Virus record (IMG/VR): IMGVR_UViG_3300049846_002791 | Span: 1 to 33,693 of that record | Reading direction: 5' to 3' (one strand) | DNA: 33,693 nt | Origin: a virus | In this document: one piece after another, positions 2,408-15,919 of the stretch | Numbering within the stretch: the first letter of the stretch is position 1 | How the letters are laid out: each line of letters starts with the position of its first letter | The notes under the pieces: generated by a model | The model's input: only the letters and a program-made list of their open reading frames with translations | Database searches by the model: none | What the model was told of the DNA's origin: nothing | Position numbers and translations under genes: made by a program

Positions 2408-2562
2408 ACCGCGTCTGCTACGACATCTCACAAATCATCGCAACCGCCTGCATCACCGCAGGCACATGGGGATCCCAAGGATGGCCAACAGCACTCATCA
2501 CCGCCGGCGCGCTCATACTCGCGCTTGGCGTTCTCGACTTGCTGCTCTTGCGCTCGCGATAG
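2404..2562 (+). CDS. Small membrane protein between terminase and portal
   Basis: Fifty-two residues starting MNRVCYDISQII and ending in LLLRSR. The ATG overlaps the terminase stop (ATGA), which supports translational coupling and a real gene. A hydrophobic stretch rich in Ala, Leu and Ile covers about residues 26-48, so one membrane segment is likely. Small membrane proteins often sit between terminase and portal in HK97-like phages. No function is recognised. Confidence 0.6.
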   Translation: MNRVCYDISQIIATACITAGTWGSQGWPTALITAGALILALGVLDLLLLRSR

Positions 2563-2567
2563 CAATA

Positions 2568-4280
2568 ATGTTTGCATCATTGTTCCGCGCCGCAGACGCC
2601 TCTGACCGCTCGCCCTGGGGCGACTTCTGGTTCGAGCCCGTCACCGCCATGACCGGCGCCGGCGTGCACGTCAGCGCCGACAACGCCATGCGTATCACCG
2701 CAGTGTATCGCTGCGTGCGCCTGCTCGCCGAAACCATGGCCTGCATCCCCTTCCACCTCAAAAGCGAAGACGCCAACGGCAACCACAAAGACGAAAAAGG
2801 CCACTGGCTTTACAAACTAATCGCCAAGCGCCCGAATGACTACCAGAACGCATTCGAGTGGCACGAAATGATGATGGCGCACGTTGCCGTGCGCGGAAAC
2901 GGCTACAACCGCATCATCAGCAATGCGCGCGGTCAGATCACCGACCTCATCCCCATCATGCCCGACGCCATCAAGCGCGAGGATATTGATGGCGGCGGTT
3001 ACCGCTACAAAATCCGCAACGCCAAGGGCGACGAAACCACAGTGCCGCGCGGCGAAGTCTTCGTCGTGCGTGGCTTAAGCTGGAACGGCCGCAGCGGTCT
3101 GAACCCCATCGAATACGCGCGCGAATCGCTGGGCACCACACTCGCCGCGCAACAATACGGCAGCAAATTTTTTGCGAACTCCGGAATGCCCATCGCAGGC
3201 TGGGTTGAAAAGGTCGGCGGCTTCAAAGACGCCAACGCCAAACAGGTCTACCGCGAATCCCTCCAGCTCGGCATGACCGGCAAAAACGCAGGCAAAATTG
3301 CCGTGTTCGACAACGGCGACAAATACCACGACCCACCGCAAGTCAGCCTCGCGGACATGCAATTCCTGGAGACGCGCAAATTCGGCGTTACCGAAGTGTG
3401 CCGCATCTTCGGCTGCCCGCCGCACCTCGTGTACGACCTCGACCGCTCGACGAATAACAACATCGAGCAGCAATCCATTGAGTTCATGGTGTTCACCATG
3501 GCGCAATGGGCCACGCGCTGGGCCGCTGCTGTCACATCGCAACTGCTCGACGATGACGCACTCACCGTCGAGTACGATGCCCGCGCCCTCGAGCGCGCCG
3601 ACATGAAGACCCGCGGCGAGTTCTACGGCAAAGGCATCATGGACGGCTGGCTGACGCGCAACGAAGCGCGCGCCATGGAAAACCGCAACCCCATCGACGA
3701 CCTTGATGAGCCTCTGTTGCCACTCAACATGATCGCGGTGGGCGAAGACCGCGCACCATCCGCTGCGCCCGCAACCAACACCACCAAACAGCCGCCCGCT
3801 CCAGCAGAGCCTGCGGACCAAGCCAGCGCGCAGACGGCACAACAAAAGCAACAACAACGCCGTCTGCAAGCGCTGGTCGACAGCAACGCAAAACGCATTG
3901 CCAAGCGCATCTACAAAGCCGGCGTCTACGACGACGAAACCGCCGTCCTCGTTTCCGATGCGCTCGCCGTGCCGTTCGAGTCCGCGCGCGCCTGGTGTGA
4001 AACAGCCCGCGCGACTGAACAGAACGAGCAATCCGTACTGCAAGCCCTGCTCAGCCTGTCGGGCCATCTGCCCGAACGCGCCGCACAACCCGCCACGCCG
4101 ATCCTGTTTCAACCGCGCTTCGAAATCTCCTCGCCCGTGCACGTCGCGCCGCCCTCTGTGAATTTTGACATGCCCGTGCACATCGACGCCCACATCGAAG
4201 CCAACCGCCCTGTCACCAAGATCGTCAAAGCCGTGCGCGATCAGGACGGCAACCTCACCGCCGAGGTACACGAACAATGA
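2568..4280 (+). CDS. Portal protein, HK97 family
   Basis: A protein of 570 residues that forms the dodecameric DNA channel at the capsid vertex. The start is the ATG at 2568, just after the preceding stop; the frame extends upstream, but that part overlaps the small membrane gene. Typical portal features follow: the Y-R-C-V-R-L-L-A-E segment near residue 45, the GNGY segment, and an R-I-F-G-C-P-P-H-L motif in the clip/stem region. After about residue 400 there is a proline/alanine/glutamine-rich linker and a C-terminal extension of about 150 residues, making the protein longer than the usual 400-450. The extension may be a scaffold-like or head-interior tail; this is inference. The stop overlaps the next ATG. 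Confidence 0.9.
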   Translation: MFASLFRAADASDRSPWGDFWFEPVTAMTGAGVHVSADNAMRITAVYRCVRLLAETMACIPFHLKSEDANGNHKDEKGHWLYKLIAKRPNDYQNAFEWHEMMMAHVAVRGNGYNRIISNARGQITDLIPIMPDAIKREDIDGGGYRYKIRNAKGDETTVPRGEVFVVRGLSWNGRSGLNPIEYARESLGTTLAAQQYGSKFFANSGMPIAGWVEKVGGFKDANAKQVYRESLQLGMTGKNAGKIAVFDNGDKYHDPPQVSLADMQFLETRKFGVTEVCRIFGCPPHLVYDLDRSTNNNIEQQSIEFMVFTMAQWATRWAAAVTSQLLDDDALTVEYDARALERADMKTRGEFYGKGIMDGWLTRNEARAMENRNPIDDLDEPLLPLNMIAVGEDRAPSAAPATNTTKQPPAPAEPADQASAQTAQQKQQQRRLQALVDSNAKRIAKRIYKAGVYDDETAVLVSDALAVPFESARAWCETARATEQNEQSVLQALLSLSGHLPERAAQPATPILFQPRFEISSPVHVAPPSVNFDMPVHIDAHIEANRPVTKIVKAVRDQDGNLTAEVHEQ

Positions 4281-4744
4281 AACTCATCGACGCTGGCCGC
4301 GTCAAAGGCCACCTGCTCGTCGAAAAATACGACGCGCAAGGCCGGCACACCGGCAATGCCGAGGTAACTAATTTATTCCTCACCGTCGGCATCAACGAAT
4401 TGTGGAAGTTGTTCAGCGGTCAATCCGCCAACACGTTCAACAACGCCAACGCGCAGATCGGCATCGGCGACAGCAGCACCGCCGCATCCGCAGGCCAAAC
4501 CGACCTTCAAGCCGCCACCAACAAGACCTACAAAGCGCAAGACGCCAGCTTCCCCAGCGTCCCTGCAAGCGGCCAGATTCAATACAAATCCACCTTCGGC
4601 AGCTCCGACGCCAATTACGTGTGGAACGAATTTGTACTGAAGCACAGCGGCAGCGCCATCTGCCTGGATCGCGGCGTGTCCTCCATGGGCACCAAGGCAT
4701 CCGGCACCACCTGGGTAGTCACGCTCACCCTCACCATCACGTGA
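4277..4744 (+). CDS. Virion-type protein of unknown role (GIGDSSTAASAGQTDLQ motif)
   Basis: A protein of 155 residues coupled to the portal gene by ATGA. The middle carries N-A-Q-I-G-I-G-D-S-S-T-A followed by Q-T-D-L-Q-A-A-T-N-K, a signature I recognise from unannotated phage proteins near head and tail genes. The C-terminal half alternates polar and beta-branched residues and ends in VVTLTLTIT, suggesting a beta-sandwich. It lies between portal and protease, where the core HK97 set normally has nothing. A virion surface, decoration or fibre role is inferred from context, not shown. Confidence 0.65.
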   Translation: MKLIDAGRVKGHLLVEKYDAQGRHTGNAEVTNLFLTVGINELWKLFSGQSANTFNNANAQIGIGDSSTAASAGQTDLQAATNKTYKAQDASFPSVPASGQIQYKSTFGSSDANYVWNEFVLKHSGSAICLDRGVSSMGTKASGTTWVVTLTLTIT

Positions 4745-4756
4745 TAGGGACATCCA

Positions 4757-4951
4757 ATGACCATCGAAGCCCATCCCGGTGACATCAACATGATCATCGT
4801 GTTGCGTGCCGACGGCGGCACCGTGGTCGTCGACGGCCCGCTCGACAACAAAGTGCTTTCCTACGGAATGCTGGAGCGCGCGCGCGACGCCATCCAGAAC
4901 TATCAGCCCGATAACGCGGGCCTCATTGTGCCGATGTTGCCCACGCAATAA
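4757..4951 (+). CDS. Small hypothetical protein
   Basis: A protein of 64 residues preceded by an AGGGA ribosome binding site about 7 bases upstream. Its stop overlaps the next start by one base (TAATG). No cysteines, no membrane segment and no recognised domain. It contains a beta-rich first half (I-I-V-L-R-A-D-G-G-T-V-V-V) and a helical second half. It is part of the five-gene cassette between portal and protease. Confidence 0.6.
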   Translation: MTIEAHPGDINMIIVLRADGGTVVVDGPLDNKVLSYGMLERARDAIQNYQPDNAGLIVPMLPTQ

Positions 4952-5274
4952 TGCCTTCCCCTCAAGACAGCTTTGTCCAGGTTGCCGCCGATGGCAGCGG
5001 CAAGCGCGTGCGCAACATGGCGCTGCAAGTCGTGCTGCCCGACAACACCATCGGCACCGTCTACATGCAAGTCGTGTCGATCGCCGATGAAAACGGAAAC
5101 GAAATTATCGTTGCCGATGAACTCGACTGGCGTCAGCAAATGCTCGACGAAACCCGCGCCATCCGCATTGCCATGCAACAGATGTGGGACGCCGGCAACG
5201 AGCGTTTGCCAATGAAATCCCGCGACGATTTTCTGGAACTCGCGCTCGAAGAGCGCAACCCGGTATTGGAATAA
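4951..5274 (+). CDS. Hypothetical cassette protein
   Basis: A protein of 107 residues, coupled to the upstream gene by TAATG. The first half is beta-rich (V-V-L-P-D-N-T-I-G-T-V-Y-M-Q-V-V). From about residue 60 it is helical and charged, ending E-L-A-L-E-E-R-N-P-V-L-E. No family is recognised. It sits between two virion-type genes and is probably co-expressed with them. Confidence 0.6.
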   Translation: MPSPQDSFVQVAADGSGKRVRNMALQVVLPDNTIGTVYMQVVSIADENGNEIIVADELDWRQQMLDETRAIRIAMQQMWDAGNERLPMKSRDDFLELALEERNPVLE

Positions 5275-5289
5275 CAGGAGTCAACCAAC

Positions 5290-6006
5290 ATGCCACAAAC
5301 CCAAATCATCGGCGGCGGTAACCTGCAACCAGGCGTCCCGCTCGCAGTCGACCCGCTGTATCAGGCCGCGCGCGTCGCCATGCGTCCGCTTGACTACACC
5401 AACCAGGGCCAGTTGCTCGGCCACTACGCCGTCGCACAAGCCAGCGGCGCTACCGTCTCCCTCGGCGCCGGTGCGCACCTGGGGTCGCTCCGCTGGACAG
5501 ACACCACACGCTTTCTGGTGCTCATGTATCTGCGCGCATCGTGGTCGATCACCGGCGCCGTCACGGCCGCAACGCCGATGGATCTGCAAGCCATCATCGC
5601 GCGCGGCTTTTCGGTGGATTTCACCACCAACAGCACCGCCGCCAATATGGCGGCAAACAGCAACACAAACAAAATGCGCGCATCAATGGGCGCGTCGCTG
5701 CTCGGTGCCAACGGCCCGCGCATCGCCACCACCGCCGCCATGTCCGGCCAAACCCTCACGCAGGATGCGAACCCGTTCGGCATGACCGCGTTCACCAACC
5801 AGCCCAGCGGCAACGCCACTGTTACGCAGGCCATCGGTGTCGGCCATCCCACGGTCGATCTCTACAACTGGAACACCGCCGGCGCGCACCCCGTCGTGCT
5901 CACCGCGAACGAAGGCGTGCTCGTGCAGCCCGTCACCGCTGGCCCAACGACCGGCTCTGTCAAGTACTACCTCACCTGGGCCTGGGCCGAAGTCGCCTTG
6001 TTCTAA
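5290..6006 (+). CDS. Putative virion structural protein (NKMRASMG family)
   Basis: A protein of 238 residues with a good ribosome binding site (CAGGAG, 9 bases before the ATG). Segments R-P-x-D-Y near residue 33, R-W-T-D-T-T-R, N-T-N-K-M-R-A-S-M-G, R-I-A-T-T-A-A and a closing T-W-A-W-A-E-V resemble a widespread phage structural family seen in metagenomic phages. It is mostly beta-strand with no signal peptide. Its neighbours are also virion-like. The exact role (fibre, decoration or other surface protein) is unknown. Confidence 0.6.
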   Translation: MPQTQIIGGGNLQPGVPLAVDPLYQAARVAMRPLDYTNQGQLLGHYAVAQASGATVSLGAGAHLGSLRWTDTTRFLVLMYLRASWSITGAVTAATPMDLQAIIARGFSVDFTTNSTAANMAANSNTNKMRASMGASLLGANGPRIATTAAMSGQTLTQDANPFGMTAFTNQPSGNATVTQAIGVGHPTVDLYNWNTAGAHPVVLTANEGVLVQPVTAGPTTGSVKYYLTWAWAEVALF

Positions 6007-6029: not shown

Positions 6030-6800
6030 ATGTTACTCGACCTGCGCAGCCTGTTTGAGAATGCGCAGTCCGCCATTGATATCGCCATCGCCGATAACGG
6101 ATCCGGCGTTGACGCGACGTCTATCACCGCCAGCATCCCCGGCGCTGACAGCGCCACCGGCAGCGATGCTGTTGCCATCAGCGCCAGCCTCAGCATCTCC
6201 GACAGCGCTGCTGGCGCCGACAGCGCGTCGATCACCGCCAGCATCCCCGGATCAGACAGCGCCACCGGCACAGATAGCGCCGCCCTCACCGCCAGCGTGC
6301 CGTCGAGCGACAGCGCCACAGGCGCCGACACCGCCTCGATCACCGCCGCCATCGGCGCCAGCGATGCATCTGCAGGCAGCGACAGCACCGGCATCACCGC
6401 CAGCATTCCCGGATCAGACAGCGCCACCGGCAGCGATGCAGTCGCGCTGTCCGTGCAAATCGACATCAGCGACAGCGCCACCGGCGCCGATGCTGTCAGC
6501 GTCGACACCTCCGGCGGCATCTTCAACATCGACATCGCCGACAGCGCCAGCGGCCGCGAATCCGTCAACGTCTACGCGCTCGAGCCCTTCCTCAGCACGC
6601 GCGATTTCTACATCCCCGCGCAGCACTACCGGGCCCCGCGCAAACGCACCGGTGGCGCCGCAGACACCGCGCAAGGCGCCGACGTCATCGGCATTCACGC
6701 GCTGATTGAAGCGCGCGATGCCGCCAAAGGCTCCGCCAGTCTGCGCATCGAAAAGCGTGATCCCGACATGGACATCCTCTTACTCGCACTCGCCGCATAG
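6030..6800 (+). CDS. 18-residue-repeat virion protein
   Basis: A protein of 256 residues. After a short N-terminal part, residues 19-144 are seven consecutive units of exactly 18 residues. The core is x-x-S-D-S-A-T-G-x-D-x-x-x-I-x-A-S-I, for example PGSDSATGSDAVALSVQI. Two looser units follow (145-167 and 168-185). A linker containing a basic APRKRT segment follows at about 186-208, then two degenerate units (209-226 and 227-240) and a hydrophobic end (ILLLALAA). The alternation of small polar turns with regular Ile/Val/Leu positions suggests one coil of a beta-solenoid or fibre per unit; this is inference. The function is unknown; a head or tail fibre is the best guess. Confidence 0.6.
   Translation: MLLDLRSLFENAQSAIDIAIADNGSGVDATSITASIPGADSATGSDAVAISASLSISDSAAGADSASITASIPGSDSATGTDSAALTASVPSSDSATGADTASITAAIGASDASAGSDSTGITASIPGSDSATGSDAVALSVQIDISDSATGADAVSVDTSGGIFNIDIADSASGRESVNVYALEPFLSTRDFYIPAQHYRAPRKRTGGAADTAQGADVIGIHALIEARDAAKGSASLRIEKRDPDMDILLLALAA
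6084..6461 (+). repeat. Seven tandem 54-bp coding repeats
   Basis: 378 bases equal seven in-frame units of 54 bp encoding residues 19-144 of the repeat protein. Units share the GACAGCGCC/ACCGGC core but differ at many positions, so this is a diverged array kept in register at the protein level rather than a recent expansion. Units 2, 4 and 7 are the most alike. Unit number could vary between related phages by recombination. Confidence 0.9.
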
Positions 6801-6808
6801 GTGACCTC

Positions 6809-7759
6809 ATGACCAACAACCCCGCCCGCCTGCTCGCTGCATTCTACGGCGCCGCCTGGGCCATCCTGCCCGACGTGCACGCCTCCATGGAGCAGGTTCT
6901 GCTGCGCTGGGCCGCGGGCGTCAAGCTCGACGACCCCGACATCGCCGCCGCCATCGGTGACAAACCGGCAATCCACGCCGCGCGCCGCAGCAACACCGCC
7001 AGCGCCAGCGGCGGCATCATCGGCGTGCTGCCCGTGTATGGCGTCATCGGTCACCGCGCCAACCTGGTCGCCGATTCTTCGAGCGGCATCAACACCAGCA
7101 CCGAAATCCTGCAACGCGCATTCAGCGCGATGGTCGCGGATTCCAACGTGCGCGCCATCGTGCTCGACATCGATTCCCCTGGCGGCTCAGTCGCAGGGGT
7201 GCAGGAACTCGCCGACAGCATTCGCGCCGCGCGTGGCAGCAAGCCTATCGTAGCAGTGGCCAACTCACTCGCCGCCAGCGCCGCATACTGGATCGGCGCC
7301 TCCGCCGACGAATTCGTCGTCACTCCATCGGGCGAAGTCGGCAGCATCGGCGTGTTCGCCGCGCACCAGGATGTCAGCAAAGCCGCCGAGATCAAAGGTG
7401 TCAAAACCACCCTCATCAGCGCCGGCAAATACAAAACCGAAGGCAACCCCTTCGAGGCGTTGTCAGGCGAGGCGCAGAGCGCCATGCAAGCGCGCGTGAA
7501 TGATTATTACGCCGACTTCGTGCGCGCGGTCGCGCAAAGCCGCAACGACACGCAGGCCAACGTGCGTGATGGCTACGGCGAAGGCCGCGTGCTGGGCGCC
7601 ACCAAAGCCGTACGCGCCAACCTCGTCGACCGCATCGCCACCTTTGACCAGGTGATCACCGATCTGGGTGCGCGCTTAAGTAGCGCCGCACCCGCTCGCG
7701 CCATCACCCCAACGCCGCGCCGCGCCGCGGCTGAGAGAGCGCTCACCCTATTGGACTAA
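6809..7759 (+). CDS. Head maturation protease, S49 (SppA/protease C-like) family
   Basis: A protein of 316 residues of the ClpP/crotonase fold that trims the capsid scaffold during prohead maturation. Diagnostic segments are GVLPVYGVI at about 72-80, IDSPGGSVAG at 121-130, and NSLAASAAYWI at 152-162 with Ser157 as the probable nucleophile. The segment SAGKYKTEGNPF at 204-215 holds Lys209, the probable general base of the Ser-Lys dyad. A TAGGTG ribosome binding site precedes the ATG. The major capsid gene follows, the normal order. No separate scaffold gene is seen; the N-terminal part of the capsid protein probably serves. Confidence 0.92.
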   Translation: MTNNPARLLAAFYGAAWAILPDVHASMEQVLLRWAAGVKLDDPDIAAAIGDKPAIHAARRSNTASASGGIIGVLPVYGVIGHRANLVADSSSGINTSTEILQRAFSAMVADSNVRAIVLDIDSPGGSVAGVQELADSIRAARGSKPIVAVANSLAASAAYWIGASADEFVVTPSGEVGSIGVFAAHQDVSKAAEIKGVKTTLISAGKYKTEGNPFEALSGEAQSAMQARVNDYYADFVRAVAQSRNDTQANVRDGYGEGRVLGATKAVRANLVDRIATFDQVITDLGARLSSAAPARAITPTPRRAAAERALTLLD

Positions 7760-7760
7760 G

Positions 7761-7818
7761 CACGCCAGTCCAGGCGTGACCGGCCCGATGGCCGTCACCG
7801 CCGCTGCCCGATGGCAGC
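7761..7818 (+). promoter_or_regulatory. Three adjacent GC-rich hairpins ahead of the capsid gene
   Basis: The 101-base gap between protease and capsid is packed with structure. CACGCC (7761-7766) pairs with GGCGTG (7773-7778). GTGAC plus GGCC (7776-7785, with C7781 bulged) pairs with GGCCGTCAC (7790-7798) around a CGAT loop. GCTGCC (7803-7808) pairs with GGCAGC (7813-7818), again around CGAT. Hairpins one and two share GTG and cannot both form fully. No U-tract follows, so intrinsic termination is unlikely. An mRNA processing or stabilising element that raises capsid output is a reasonable inference. Confidence 0.6.
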
Positions 7819-7860
7819 CCGGCGCGCAAACACACGCACCTACACCGGAGAAATCCCAAA

Positions 7861-9159
7861 ATGAACAAGCAAATCCGAGCACTGCTGGCCAAAAAATCCG
7901 ACCTCGTCGGCAAGGCCAAAGCCATCAACGAACTCGCCGGCGCTGAATCGCGCGAGTTCACCGACGCCGAGCAAGCGCAATTCGACGCGCTGTCCGCGCA
8001 AATCAAATCCGTCAACGCCTCGATTGAACGCGCCACGCTGATCGCGCAGGAAGAACTGTCGCTCGGTGCGGTTGCCGTTGCTGACGACGCGCACATCAGC
8101 ATCGCCGACAACCGCGAAGCCGATCCGCGGCGTGGATTCACCAGCATGGGCGACTACGCGCGCGCCGTCATGCACGCCAGCATGCCCGGAAACGCACCCG
8201 ATCAACGCCTGCTGATCGGCGCCGCTGCGCCGTCCACGTACGGCGGCGAAGGCGTGGGGTCTGATGGCGGCTTCGCAGTCCCGCCGCAGTTCGCGCAGGA
8301 CATCTACACCCACTCGCTGGGCGAAGACAGCCTGCTACCCATGACCGACAACACCACCGTCACCGGCAACAGCATGGTGTTCCCCAAGGACGAAACCACG
8401 CCCTGGGGCACGGATGGCGTGCGCGCATACTGGCAGGCTGAAGCAACGGCCGCGACAGCCACCAAGCCCAAGCTCAGCACCACCACGCTGCGCCTGTACA
8501 AGCTGATGGCGCTGGTCCCGCTCACCGACGAACTGCTCGCCGACACCAACGCGTTGAATTCCTACCTGCCGTCGAAGGTGGGCGATTCCATTCGCTGGAA
8601 AACCAACGAGGCGATTCTGTTCGGCGATGGCGTCGGCAAACCGCTGGGCGCATTCGCGGCCACCAACAACGCCGTCGTCACGGTGTCGAAGGAATCCGGT
8701 CAAGCCACGCTCACGCTGCAAGCGCTCAACATCGCCAAGATGGTCGCACGCCTTCCCGCCGGCTCGTTCCCGCGCTCGGTGTGGTTGTGCAACAACGACG
8801 TGCTGCCGGCGTTGTGGACGTTGACGTTGGGCAACTATCCCATCTACCTGCCGCCCTCTTCGGGCATTCAAGGCGCCCCGTACGGCATGCTGTCCGGCCG
8901 GCCCATCATCGTCAGCCAGCACTGCAAAACCTTCACCAACGCCGGCGACATCGTGCTGGTTGATCCGCAATACATCCGCAGCATCCAGAAAGCCGCGGGT
9001 GTGGAAACGGCAACGTCCATGCACCTCTACTTCGACGCAGACGCCACCGCGTTCCGCACCACGTTCCGTGTCGACGCGCAGCCCAAGATCGTCAACCCCA
9101 TCGCACCGTTCAACGGCAGCAACAACCTTTCGCCGTTTGTTCAGTTGCAAACCCGTTAA
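7861..9159 (+). CDS. Major capsid protein, HK97 fold
   Basis: A protein of 432 residues that builds the head shell. Residues 1 to about 65 are helical and charged, the delta/scaffold domain usually removed by the protease. The mature shell region includes GGFAVPPQ at 136-143 and the strand-rich axial and peripheral domains, with the typical L-x-P-L-T-D-E-L-L-A-D segment and a late Y-F-D-A-D-A-T-A-F-R motif. The ribosome binding site CGGAGA lies about 9 bases before the ATG. The structured gap upstream may set its expression. Length and order match the family. Confidence 0.93.
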   Translation: MNKQIRALLAKKSDLVGKAKAINELAGAESREFTDAEQAQFDALSAQIKSVNASIERATLIAQEELSLGAVAVADDAHISIADNREADPRRGFTSMGDYARAVMHASMPGNAPDQRLLIGAAAPSTYGGEGVGSDGGFAVPPQFAQDIYTHSLGEDSLLPMTDNTTVTGNSMVFPKDETTPWGTDGVRAYWQAEATAATATKPKLSTTTLRLYKLMALVPLTDELLADTNALNSYLPSKVGDSIRWKTNEAILFGDGVGKPLGAFAATNNAVVTVSKESGQATLTLQALNIAKMVARLPAGSFPRSVWLCNNDVLPALWTLTLGNYPIYLPPSSGIQGAPYGMLSGRPIIVSQHCKTFTNAGDIVLVDPQYIRSIQKAAGVETATSMHLYFDADATAFRTTFRVDAQPKIVNPIAPFNGSNNLSPFVQLQTR

Positions 9160-9187: not shown

Positions 9188-9661
9188 ATGCAACCGAACG
9201 CACTGATGTCCGATCAACTGGCGATCCTCGACGCCATCAACCCCGTGTCGCAATCCGCCGGCACCGTCACCACCGGCTGGGTCGCCGCATCCAACTTTCA
9301 CCGATTCCTCGCCACCATCATCACCGGGGTGCTGGGCGCGTCGGCGACAGTCGATGCGAAATTCCAGCAGGCCACCGACTCCGGCGGCACCGGCGCAAAA
9401 GATGTCACCGGCAAGTCCATCACGCAAATCGTGAAGGCCTCCGGCGACAACAAGACCGCCATGGTCAACCTGCGCGCCGAAGAGCTCGACATCGCCAACG
9501 GCTTCAACTACATCCGCGTCTCGCTCACGGTCGGCACTGCCGCGAGCCTCGTGGGTGTGTTGCTGCAAGGCGGTGTCCAGCGCTTCGCGCCCGCGCGTGA
9601 CACAGCGGCCAACCCGTCGATCAACCTCGGCTCTTCCAACGTGGTGCAGATCGTCGCCTAA
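9188..9661 (+). CDS. Putative head accessory or decoration protein
   Basis: A protein of 157 residues directly after the capsid gene, with TAGGAGATA as ribosome binding site. It is beta-rich with A-T-V-D-A-K-F-Q-Q-A-T-D-S-G-G and a later F-N-Y-I-R-V-S-L-T-V segment, a pattern I associate with small phage structural proteins next to capsid genes. No catalytic motif, signal or membrane segment. Position suggests a head decoration or stabilising protein; homology could not be tested. The stop codon itself is part of the following hairpin. Confidence 0.6.
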   Translation: MQPNALMSDQLAILDAINPVSQSAGTVTTGWVAASNFHRFLATIITGVLGASATVDAKFQQATDSGGTGAKDVTGKSITQIVKASGDNKTAMVNLRAEELDIANGFNYIRVSLTVGTAASLVGVLLQGGVQRFAPARDTAANPSINLGSSNVVQIVA

Positions 9662-13869: not shown

Positions 13870-15919
13870 CATCGGCGCACTGGTTTTCAAGATCGGCGCC
13901 GACATCGCCGAACTCAAAGACCAGATGGCGAAGGCGCAATCGACGGTCGAAACCGCGATGGCTGGCGCGAGCAAGGCCGCTGGCATTGCCAAGGCCGCGC
14001 TCGGCGCGGTGGGTGTGGGCCTGTCCTTCGCCGCGCTCAAATCCAGCATCGAAGGCGCGGTGAATGCCATGGATGAGCTGCGCAATATGTCATTGCGCAC
14101 GGGTGTCGCGGTCGAGCAGTTGAGCGCCCTGCGCGGCGTCGCCAAGCTCAGCGGCACCGACATGGAGGCCGTTGCCGCCAGCATCGCCAAGCTCGACAAG
14201 TCTCTGCTCGAATACGCGCGCGGCGGCGGCAGCAAATCTGCTGAGGCGTTCAAGGCGCTCGGCATCAGCACGACTGAGGCAAAGTCGGCGCTTGAGACCG
14301 GCGATGTCGCAGGCATCATGCAGCGCATCAGCACCGAATTCACCAAGGGCGGGCAAAGCGCAATAGCGGTCGCGATGGCGCAGGAGCTGATGGGCAAGAG
14401 CGCCGCGCAGATGATGCCGTTCATGCAGGAGCTTGCGCGCACCGGGCAGCTCAATACCAAGGTCACGGCAGAGCAGGCCGAGCAGGCGCACGAATACCGC
14501 CGCAACCTGGTGGCGCTGGAGTCCGCCGGAAACAAATGGAAAATGGCGCTCGCTCAAGACATGTTGCCCGCCATGCAGCGCATCACGCAGGCGATGGTCG
14601 ATGCGCAAAAAGAAGGCGGCAAGCTGTATTCGATCTGGATCGGTCTTGGCGGCGCAGCCAGTGAGGCATGGGCTGCAATCAAGGGATCGGACATGTCGCA
14701 GCTCAAGTCGTTGCAGGTCGAGATCGACCGCGAGCGCAAGATACTCGACAGCATGAGCGACCCTGCGCAGACGTATCGTTATCGCGGTGCGCAGGCCAAT
14801 GCGCGCATCAAACAACAGGAGCGCGTTAACGAACTGCTGACGCGCGAAGCTGCGCTGTCGCGGCAAATCGCAGAAGCAGGCGGCTTCGACCCGAAGCCCA
14901 ATGCGCCACCCAAGCCGTTGCCCACCTTGACCGTGCCAGACGCCGCGCCGGGTCGCGCTGGCGCCGACAGCAAATCCCCCTACGAGCGCGAGATCGAGCG
15001 CCTGCAGCAGGAGATCATCAAGGTCGACGAACTCACGCGCGTGCAGGAGGTGCTCAAGGAAATCGAGAACGACCGCTACGGCAAGCTCACCGTGGCGCAG
15101 AAAAACAATCTGATCGCGTACGCCGCGCAGGTTGATCTCACGCGCGAGGACGTGCGCGTGCAGAAAGAAGCAAAGGACGCGGTCGAAAAAACGCAACGCG
15201 AAGCCGATGCGCGCCTGCGTAGCGAGGCCGAGCGCTTGAATCACCTGCGCGACCAGTACATCGAGATGGCCGACCCGCTGGAGAAATACCGCAAGCAGCT
15301 TGCCGACGTTGATGTGCTGCTCGAAAAGGGCCTGCTGACGCAACAGCAGGCCATGGAAGCGCAGTGGAAAATCAATGAGGCCATGGATAAGACATGGCAG
15401 AAGAATGAAGAGGCCGCGAAAGACACGATGCACATCTGGAAACAGCTTGGTGGCATCTTCGAACGCACATTCGAAAGCGCTGTGAGCGGTGGCAACAAGT
15501 TCAGCAATGTGCTTGCGAACCTGGCATCTGACTTGAGCCGGCTGTTTATGCGCAAAACGGTGATGGAGCCGGCCGGGCAGATGTTCGAAAGTGCGCTGAA
15601 GAGGTTTGACTTCGGCAGCATCTTTGGCGATTTGTTCCGCGCCGAGGGCGGCCCGGTCAGCGCGAACAGCCCGTACATCGTCGGCGAGCAGGGCCCGGAA
15701 CTGTTTGTGCCCGGCGCCTCCGGTTCCATCGTGCCCAATGGTCAATTTGGCGGCGGCGGGCGCGGTGCGCCTGTGGTGATCGTGCAAAACATGAGCTTCG
15801 GTAGCGAGGTCAGCCGCGGCACGCTGATGGCGTGGGGCGAGGCCATCAAACAACAAACCATGTCGCTCGTGGCCGATCAGGTCACGCGCGGCGGCGCATT
15901 CGCAGCCTCTTTCCGGTAA
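13862..15919 (+). CDS. Tail tape measure protein
   Basis: A protein of 685 residues that sets tail length; at roughly 1.5 angstrom per residue this predicts a tail near 100 nm. The GTG start has an ideal AAGGAGGT site (13848-13855) six bases upstream. Residues 1-200 are Ala-rich helix with a hydrophobic patch, about 290-540 form long charged coiled-coil, and near residues 597-620 lies the G-G-P-V-S-x-x-S-P-Y-I-V-G-E-x-G-P-E-L-F motif common at tape measure C-termini. It is at the short end of the family. The long reverse-strand frame across this gene is a composition shadow. Confidence 0.93.
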   Translation: MADIGALVFKIGADIAELKDQMAKAQSTVETAMAGASKAAGIAKAALGAVGVGLSFAALKSSIEGAVNAMDELRNMSLRTGVAVEQLSALRGVAKLSGTDMEAVAASIAKLDKSLLEYARGGGSKSAEAFKALGISTTEAKSALETGDVAGIMQRISTEFTKGGQSAIAVAMAQELMGKSAAQMMPFMQELARTGQLNTKVTAEQAEQAHEYRRNLVALESAGNKWKMALAQDMLPAMQRITQAMVDAQKEGGKLYSIWIGLGGAASEAWAAIKGSDMSQLKSLQVEIDRERKILDSMSDPAQTYRYRGAQANARIKQQERVNELLTREAALSRQIAEAGGFDPKPNAPPKPLPTLTVPDAAPGRAGADSKSPYEREIERLQQEIIKVDELTRVQEVLKEIENDRYGKLTVAQKNNLIAYAAQVDLTREDVRVQKEAKDAVEKTQREADARLRSEAERLNHLRDQYIEMADPLEKYRKQLADVDVLLEKGLLTQQQAMEAQWKINEAMDKTWQKNEEAAKDTMHIWKQLGGIFERTFESAVSGGNKFSNVLANLASDLSRLFMRKTVMEPAGQMFESALKRFDFGSIFGDLFRAEGGPVSANSPYIVGEQGPELFVPGASGSIVPNGQFGGGGRGAPVVIVQNMSFGSEVSRGTLMAWGEAIKQQTMSLVADQVTRGGAFAASFR

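Follow-up and report, generated by a model that had tools for sequence, protein, structure and literature searches.

The closest described counterparts of the protein analysed here are minor tail proteins of cultured actinophages, namely Butters gp22, Gengar gp27, Cracklewink gp28 and MalagasyRose gp28 of Mycobacterium phages, and Shagrat gp4/gp5 and REQ1 orf64 of Rhodococcus phages, which carry acidic xDxGxGxD units of 16–20 residues with a segment of short repeats beside the array. In the mycobacteriophage proteins the order is short repeats, units and then a glycine-rich domain, and the gene is one of the final minor tail genes preceding lysis. All of these proteins carry no other annotation than 'hypothetical' or 'minor tail protein', the latter name being an annotators' label. 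We found no description of this repeat in the literature, which is weak evidence of absence because coverage was incomplete, and no Pfam, PHROGs or NCBIfam family model that covers the repeats.

The window analysed here comprises 33693 bases and corresponds to an entire IMG/VR record. Its gene order, confirmed for those genes that have family matches, is terS, terL, portal, g4, g5, g6, g7, the repeat protein gene (hereafter REP), an S49 protease and an HK97-type capsid protein, and 3′ of the capsid protein follow a head-tail adaptor, a tail completion protein, the major tail protein, the tape measure, the distal tail protein and a J-like tail fibre. The presence of a tyrosine integrase gene (PF00589; 25652–26716, minus strand) indicates that the phage is temperate. 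We also noted that the gene following the capsid protein (9188–9661) belongs to phrog_28483, a family of unknown function that is kept in nearly all of the portal/protease relatives at about 49–79% identity; its product is possibly a decoration or head-completion protein. The features of the region around REP are as follows.

2466..4280, + strand: portal gene (PF04860, phrog_12), the left border of the cassette
4277..4744, + strand: g4, 155 aa (phrog_23653/phrog_5417), partner of REP in the cassette, with a predicted beta fold of the fibre-adaptor or baseplate type
4757..4951, + strand: g5, 64 aa, orphan within the inserted cassette
4951..5274, + strand: g6, 107 aa, orphan within the inserted cassette
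5290..6006, + strand: g7, 238 aa, orphan directly 5′ of REP
6030..6800, + strand: REP gene, 256-aa repeat protein, ATG start
6081..6512, + strand: eight exact 18-residue units of REP, consensus [I/L/V]xxSDSATGxDxxx[I/L/V]TAS
6528..6581, + strand: ninth, looser unit of REP (the IDIADSASGRESVNVYAL region), at residue 171, 23 residues after the eighth
6582..6650, + strand: basic linker of REP (EPFLSTRDFYIPAQHYRAPRKRT), likened to the basic tail of short repeats at the C-terminus of relatives
6651..6755, + strand: two degenerate C-terminal units of REP (ADTAQGADVIGIHALIEA, RDAAKGSASLRIEKRD)
6809..7759, + strand: S49 head maturation protease gene (PF01343, phrog_53), the right border of the cassette

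It can be seen that REP is built from a highly regular repeat. The motif D-x3-G-x-D starts at residues 22, 40, 58, 76, 94, 112, 130 and 148, giving seven intervals of exactly 18 residues and hence eight units in register, across which D5, G9 and D11 are invariant, positions 1 and 15 are mainly hydrophobic and positions 3 and 13 are mixed. Beyond the linker STRDFYIPAQHYRAPRKR the motif recurs at residue 212 (+41), with a degenerate copy near residue 229, and the total is ten matches, eight of them in exact register. At a lag of 18 the protein matches itself at 64 of 158 positions, far above the average of 21 over 5000 shuffles, in which no more than 35 were reached, and also above the shuffled maximum of 41 over all lags from 5 to 44 (5000 shuffles). 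The initial annotation had described an 18-residue tandem repeat with seven exact and two looser units, a basic linker and two degenerate C-terminal units; the repeat is borne out, with the exact units numbering eight and the looser ones one. At the DNA level, TRF reports a 54-bp array at 6123–6436 (5.8 copies, 64% matches). TRF also finds a 108-bp, two-unit period (6118–6347 of the window) whose 79% matches exceed those of the 54-bp one, and units with IPG- and IxI-type starts alternate along the protein. Residues 15–190 have a net charge of −22. The likeness of the linker to the short-repeat tail of relatives was judged by eye without a scored alignment, and in REP this segment is single and internal.

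No match to REP above cut-off was found in Pfam, PHROGs or NCBIfam, and these libraries revealed no receptor-binding or enzymatic terminal domain. RTX calcium-binding repeats (PF00353) were considered and rejected, as REP has one G-x-D per 18 residues and no match to PF00353 at E<=1. Likewise, no model of an adenovirus-type triple beta-spiral shaft matched REP at E<=1, and NCBIfam matches to SdrD/ClfA were far below cut-off and compositional. An AlphaFold2 model of the REP monomer, made from a 16-row alignment, had a mean pLDDT of 56.8 and a pTM of 0.44; residues 20–140 (pLDDT about 65–73) contained no strand, and residues 141–183 (pLDDT about 50–65) formed a short antiparallel meander. Foldseek gave no match for this model in the PDB, the two rows at E=8.8 being meaningless at this model confidence, and a profile of the units had no solved relative. 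The proposal that each unit forms one coil of a beta-solenoid therefore finds no support for the monomer, since the main array is modelled with low confidence and without strands and gave no match among solved structures. The alternation of hydrophobic residues suggests that a unit may comprise one strand and an acidic glycine loop, and the array could possibly be disordered and act as a tether, or form a fibre as an oligomer.

A first search (P0001) retrieved four viral loci (L001–L004), and an alignment of five arrays (A1) extended the search to 54 viral loci that, with the first four, form 31 clusters at 75% identity. We define the family by tandem units of 16–21 residues with the pattern [DE]-x3-[G]-x-[DE], a definition that covers REP, and its relatives show about 28–46% identity. 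Unit number, the comparison of which in relatives had been proposed at the outset, varies from 4 to 48 in the acidic arrays of the 31 clusters, with units mostly of 18 or 20 residues. Among 461 units from relatives, G9 is present in 83% and V, I, L or F lies mainly at positions 1, 3 and 13, while D or E at positions 5 and 11 in 100% of units is demanded by the motif used. In the usual layout, the array lies between a binding-type domain, which is either rich in glycine or a tailspike of the pectate-lyase kind, and a basic or aromatic short-repeat tail, for example VVRVTAEDRTVRVEREDRTVRVPREVR or WNPIDDTQSANWQNV; the array has a negative net charge in all proteins measured and the tail a positive one in most. 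In one relative (L004) the array and a pectate-lyase tailspike domain (PF12708; phrog_2234) are part of a single protein. The gene for another (L082) has a tail-sheath gene nearby, so that membership extends beyond siphophages. Four loci (L085, L086, L089 and L105) encode a family of proteins of about 2000 residues, in which units of 20 residues lie close to a Trp-rich short repeat (SPGWVQINDTQ) at the C-terminus; no g4 is present in their available flanks. The sole locus from a genome contig retrieved with P0001 (L133) encodes a Streptomyces Ser/Asp-rich protein, which we read as a compositional match. Searches of phages by tblastn with REP, the L003 array and L121 returned nothing, or nothing significant, in part because low-complexity filtering masks repeats; the same search with L083, which has an N-terminal domain, gave matches.

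The initial annotation had regarded the position between portal and protease as unexpected for a fibre. In most of the portal/protease relatives that have both genes these overlap or abut, and in a relative with a 60% identical terminase (L043) only about 360 bases separate them, indicating that the cassette in the window is an insertion; to this extent the position is indeed unusual. However, the locus nearest by protease (58%) among those fetched with the protease (L057) has a fibre-like cassette of about 6 kb in the same place, between a portal at 7616–8965 and a protease near 15141 of its record. None of the genes in that cassette is related to g4, g7 or REP, and we conclude that the slot, which is empty in other relatives, takes different accessory cassettes. 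At positions 1477–5992 of L057 this cassette contains genes for one beta-type and one Gly-rich protein, as well as an open frame of 395 residues in which long tandem repeats are accompanied by a short AARxF repeat at the C-terminus. In five other loci (L001, L003, L004, L104 and L116) the REP gene is no more than about 3 kb away from a portal or terminase gene, so that the location of REP is not exceptional. No homologue of g5, g6 or g7 was found among the loci searched, which for g7 comprised phages, viral contigs and the fetched loci. In the record behind L050 (G003:C1:16088–17347) the portal homologue contains one in-frame TGA.

The gene most consistently found with REP is g4, which lies 1.3 kb upstream of it in the window and matches the profiles of phrog_5417 and phrog_23653 (E values of 1.2e-10 and 5e-35). 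These two families are also the ones most often matched by ORFs neighbouring REP genes, followed by portal and terminase. Of the 31 clusters, 19 have a g4 homologue no more than 3 kb from REP, against none of the 69 control loci fetched by portal or protease (Fisher 1e-12); the g4 HMM was built from eight sequences to which three of the clusters contributed, and without those the count is 16 of 28. In the 12 clusters in which no g4 was seen, several contigs are incomplete or filled by a 6-kb ORF. Homologues of g4 are also near REP in REQ1 and Shagrat. By eye, a small gene that follows REP in the mycobacteriophages resembled g4, but no relation emerged when profiles were compared. We also noted that BcepGomr gp18 (L075) is a g4 homologue in a tail operon and that the adjoining gp17 ends in a different, ISLSESISLAE-like repeat.

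The g4 model (pLDDT 90) matched residues 379–508 of chain BD of 9h4p, with a VIA Z of 11.9 over 128 residues and a Foldseek E of 5e-6; this chain is taken to be the baseplate hub protein gp44 of HFTV1 from its length (953 against 954 aa). Further VIA Z scores were 8.2 for A511 gp105, 7.6–8.1 for the phi812 baseplate arm and 7.1 for the GP4 fibre-tail adaptor, and as a Z of 7–8 is in the range of chance arrangements, HFTV1 alone is clearly above it. The model also matches phiKZ gp139. The g4 protein is thus predicted to be a beta-sandwich of the fibre-adaptor or baseplate-arm type. The L002-type g4 is related in sequence to a solved chain, PDB 26la_U, and over 142 aa the matched stretch of that chain is identical to ORF007 of Pseudomonas phage KPP25; no REP gene was present among the KPP25 neighbours read.

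We consider it probable that REP is the stalk of an accessory virion fibre, without a binding head, encoded together with g4 in a cassette at the variable portal–protease slot. We infer that REP is present in the virion and acts as a stalk and that g4 anchors it, and g7 may have a part in the same structure. An extensible rod or tether would be made up of the acidic 18-residue units and fastened to the particle or to a partner by the basic linker and the C-terminal part, and the g4 protein would be a small beta-sandwich adaptor on which the fibre is mounted. In most relatives the other end of the stalk bears a glycine-rich, lectin-like or tailspike domain. REP and g4 would have arrived together as a cassette in the slot. 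The fibre-like nature proposed in the initial annotation thus gains indirect support from the domain partners of REP, from its linkage to a gene with an adaptor or baseplate fold and from the 'minor tail protein' annotations of relatives. The lack in the window protein of a terminal binding domain, which would make it an adhesin, counts against this reading, as do the low-confidence model of REP and the 12 clusters in which no g4 was seen; on the stalk interpretation REP represents a minimal form, and we conjecture that the orphan g7 product may complete it as a partner on a separate chain.

The gene neighbourhood could also be taken to place REP on the capsid, at hexamer centres or vertices, as a head-surface fibre or decoration with g4/g7 as its base. 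REP has its place in the head cluster, beside the protease and capsid protein genes, other members adjoin portal or terminase genes, and phage 7-7-1 has head fibres at its vertices (PMC12796354). However, the fold matches of g4 are to tail or baseplate parts, the annotated mycobacteriophage relatives are in the tail operon, and gene position is a poor guide to position in the virion; a head location therefore appears rather unlikely to us. The missing N-terminal domain, the degenerate last units and a length below that of most relatives would fit a fibre gene in decay, left without a function after loss of the binding domain. Against this, the frame is open, its codon-position G+C (0.60/0.59/0.80) has the same pattern as that of the neighbouring genes, the D, G and D residues are invariant in all eight exact units, and 84 of the 251 identical residue pairs between units are encoded by different codons, and we judge decay to be improbable. 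Least convincing is a disordered, scaffold-like acidic factor for head assembly that is cut by the adjacent protease, which we hold to be very improbable: REP is acidic, adjoins the maturation protease and gives a low-confidence model, but its relatives bear binding-type or tailspike domains of an extracellular kind and are encoded in tail operons too, and it is absent from close phages.

Returning to the accessory fibre stalk, we tentatively suggest a wider generalisation, about which we are more doubtful than convinced: that the repeats belong to a general, as yet unnamed fibre system of tailed phages, in which a variable-length acidic xDxGxGxD stalk with a basic strap is combined with a g4-type adaptor and exchangeable heads in a cassette of the head or tail cluster, with an unsolved fold that is probably oligomeric and perhaps cation-dependent. 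The range of unit numbers would be a natural means of tuning the reach of such a fibre. The repeats are present in cultured actinophages and in phage contigs of which dozens are distinct. The co-occurrence of REP and g4 offers a handle for predicting virion fibres from sequence, and the cultured hosts of the M. smegmatis phages make the role of REP directly testable.

In comparison with known systems, REP differs from the actinophage minor tail proteins in lacking their glycine-rich or other large domain, and their genes sit within the tail operon or ahead of terminase rather than between portal and protease, although REQ1 and Shagrat share with the window the closeness of the g4 homologue. 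The staphylococcal SD-repeat (MSCRAMM) stalks resemble REP as acidic, Ser-Asp rich spacers, by analogy only, since they do not have the 18-residue G/D unit and no sortase signal was seen in REP. The L004 tailspike (Pect-lyase_RHGA_epim, phrog_2234) has the same units, with a basic R-rich segment after them and a g4 homologue in the cassette, but differs in its depolymerase-type beta-helix domain. Finally, g4 itself belongs by profile match to phrog_23653 and phrog_5417, families of unknown function, and its predicted fold is shared by the HFTV1 gp44 baseplate hub domain (9h4p BD 379–508) and the GP4 fibre-tail adaptor (8jou), from which it differs in being a free-standing protein of 155 aa with about 20% identity or less to them.
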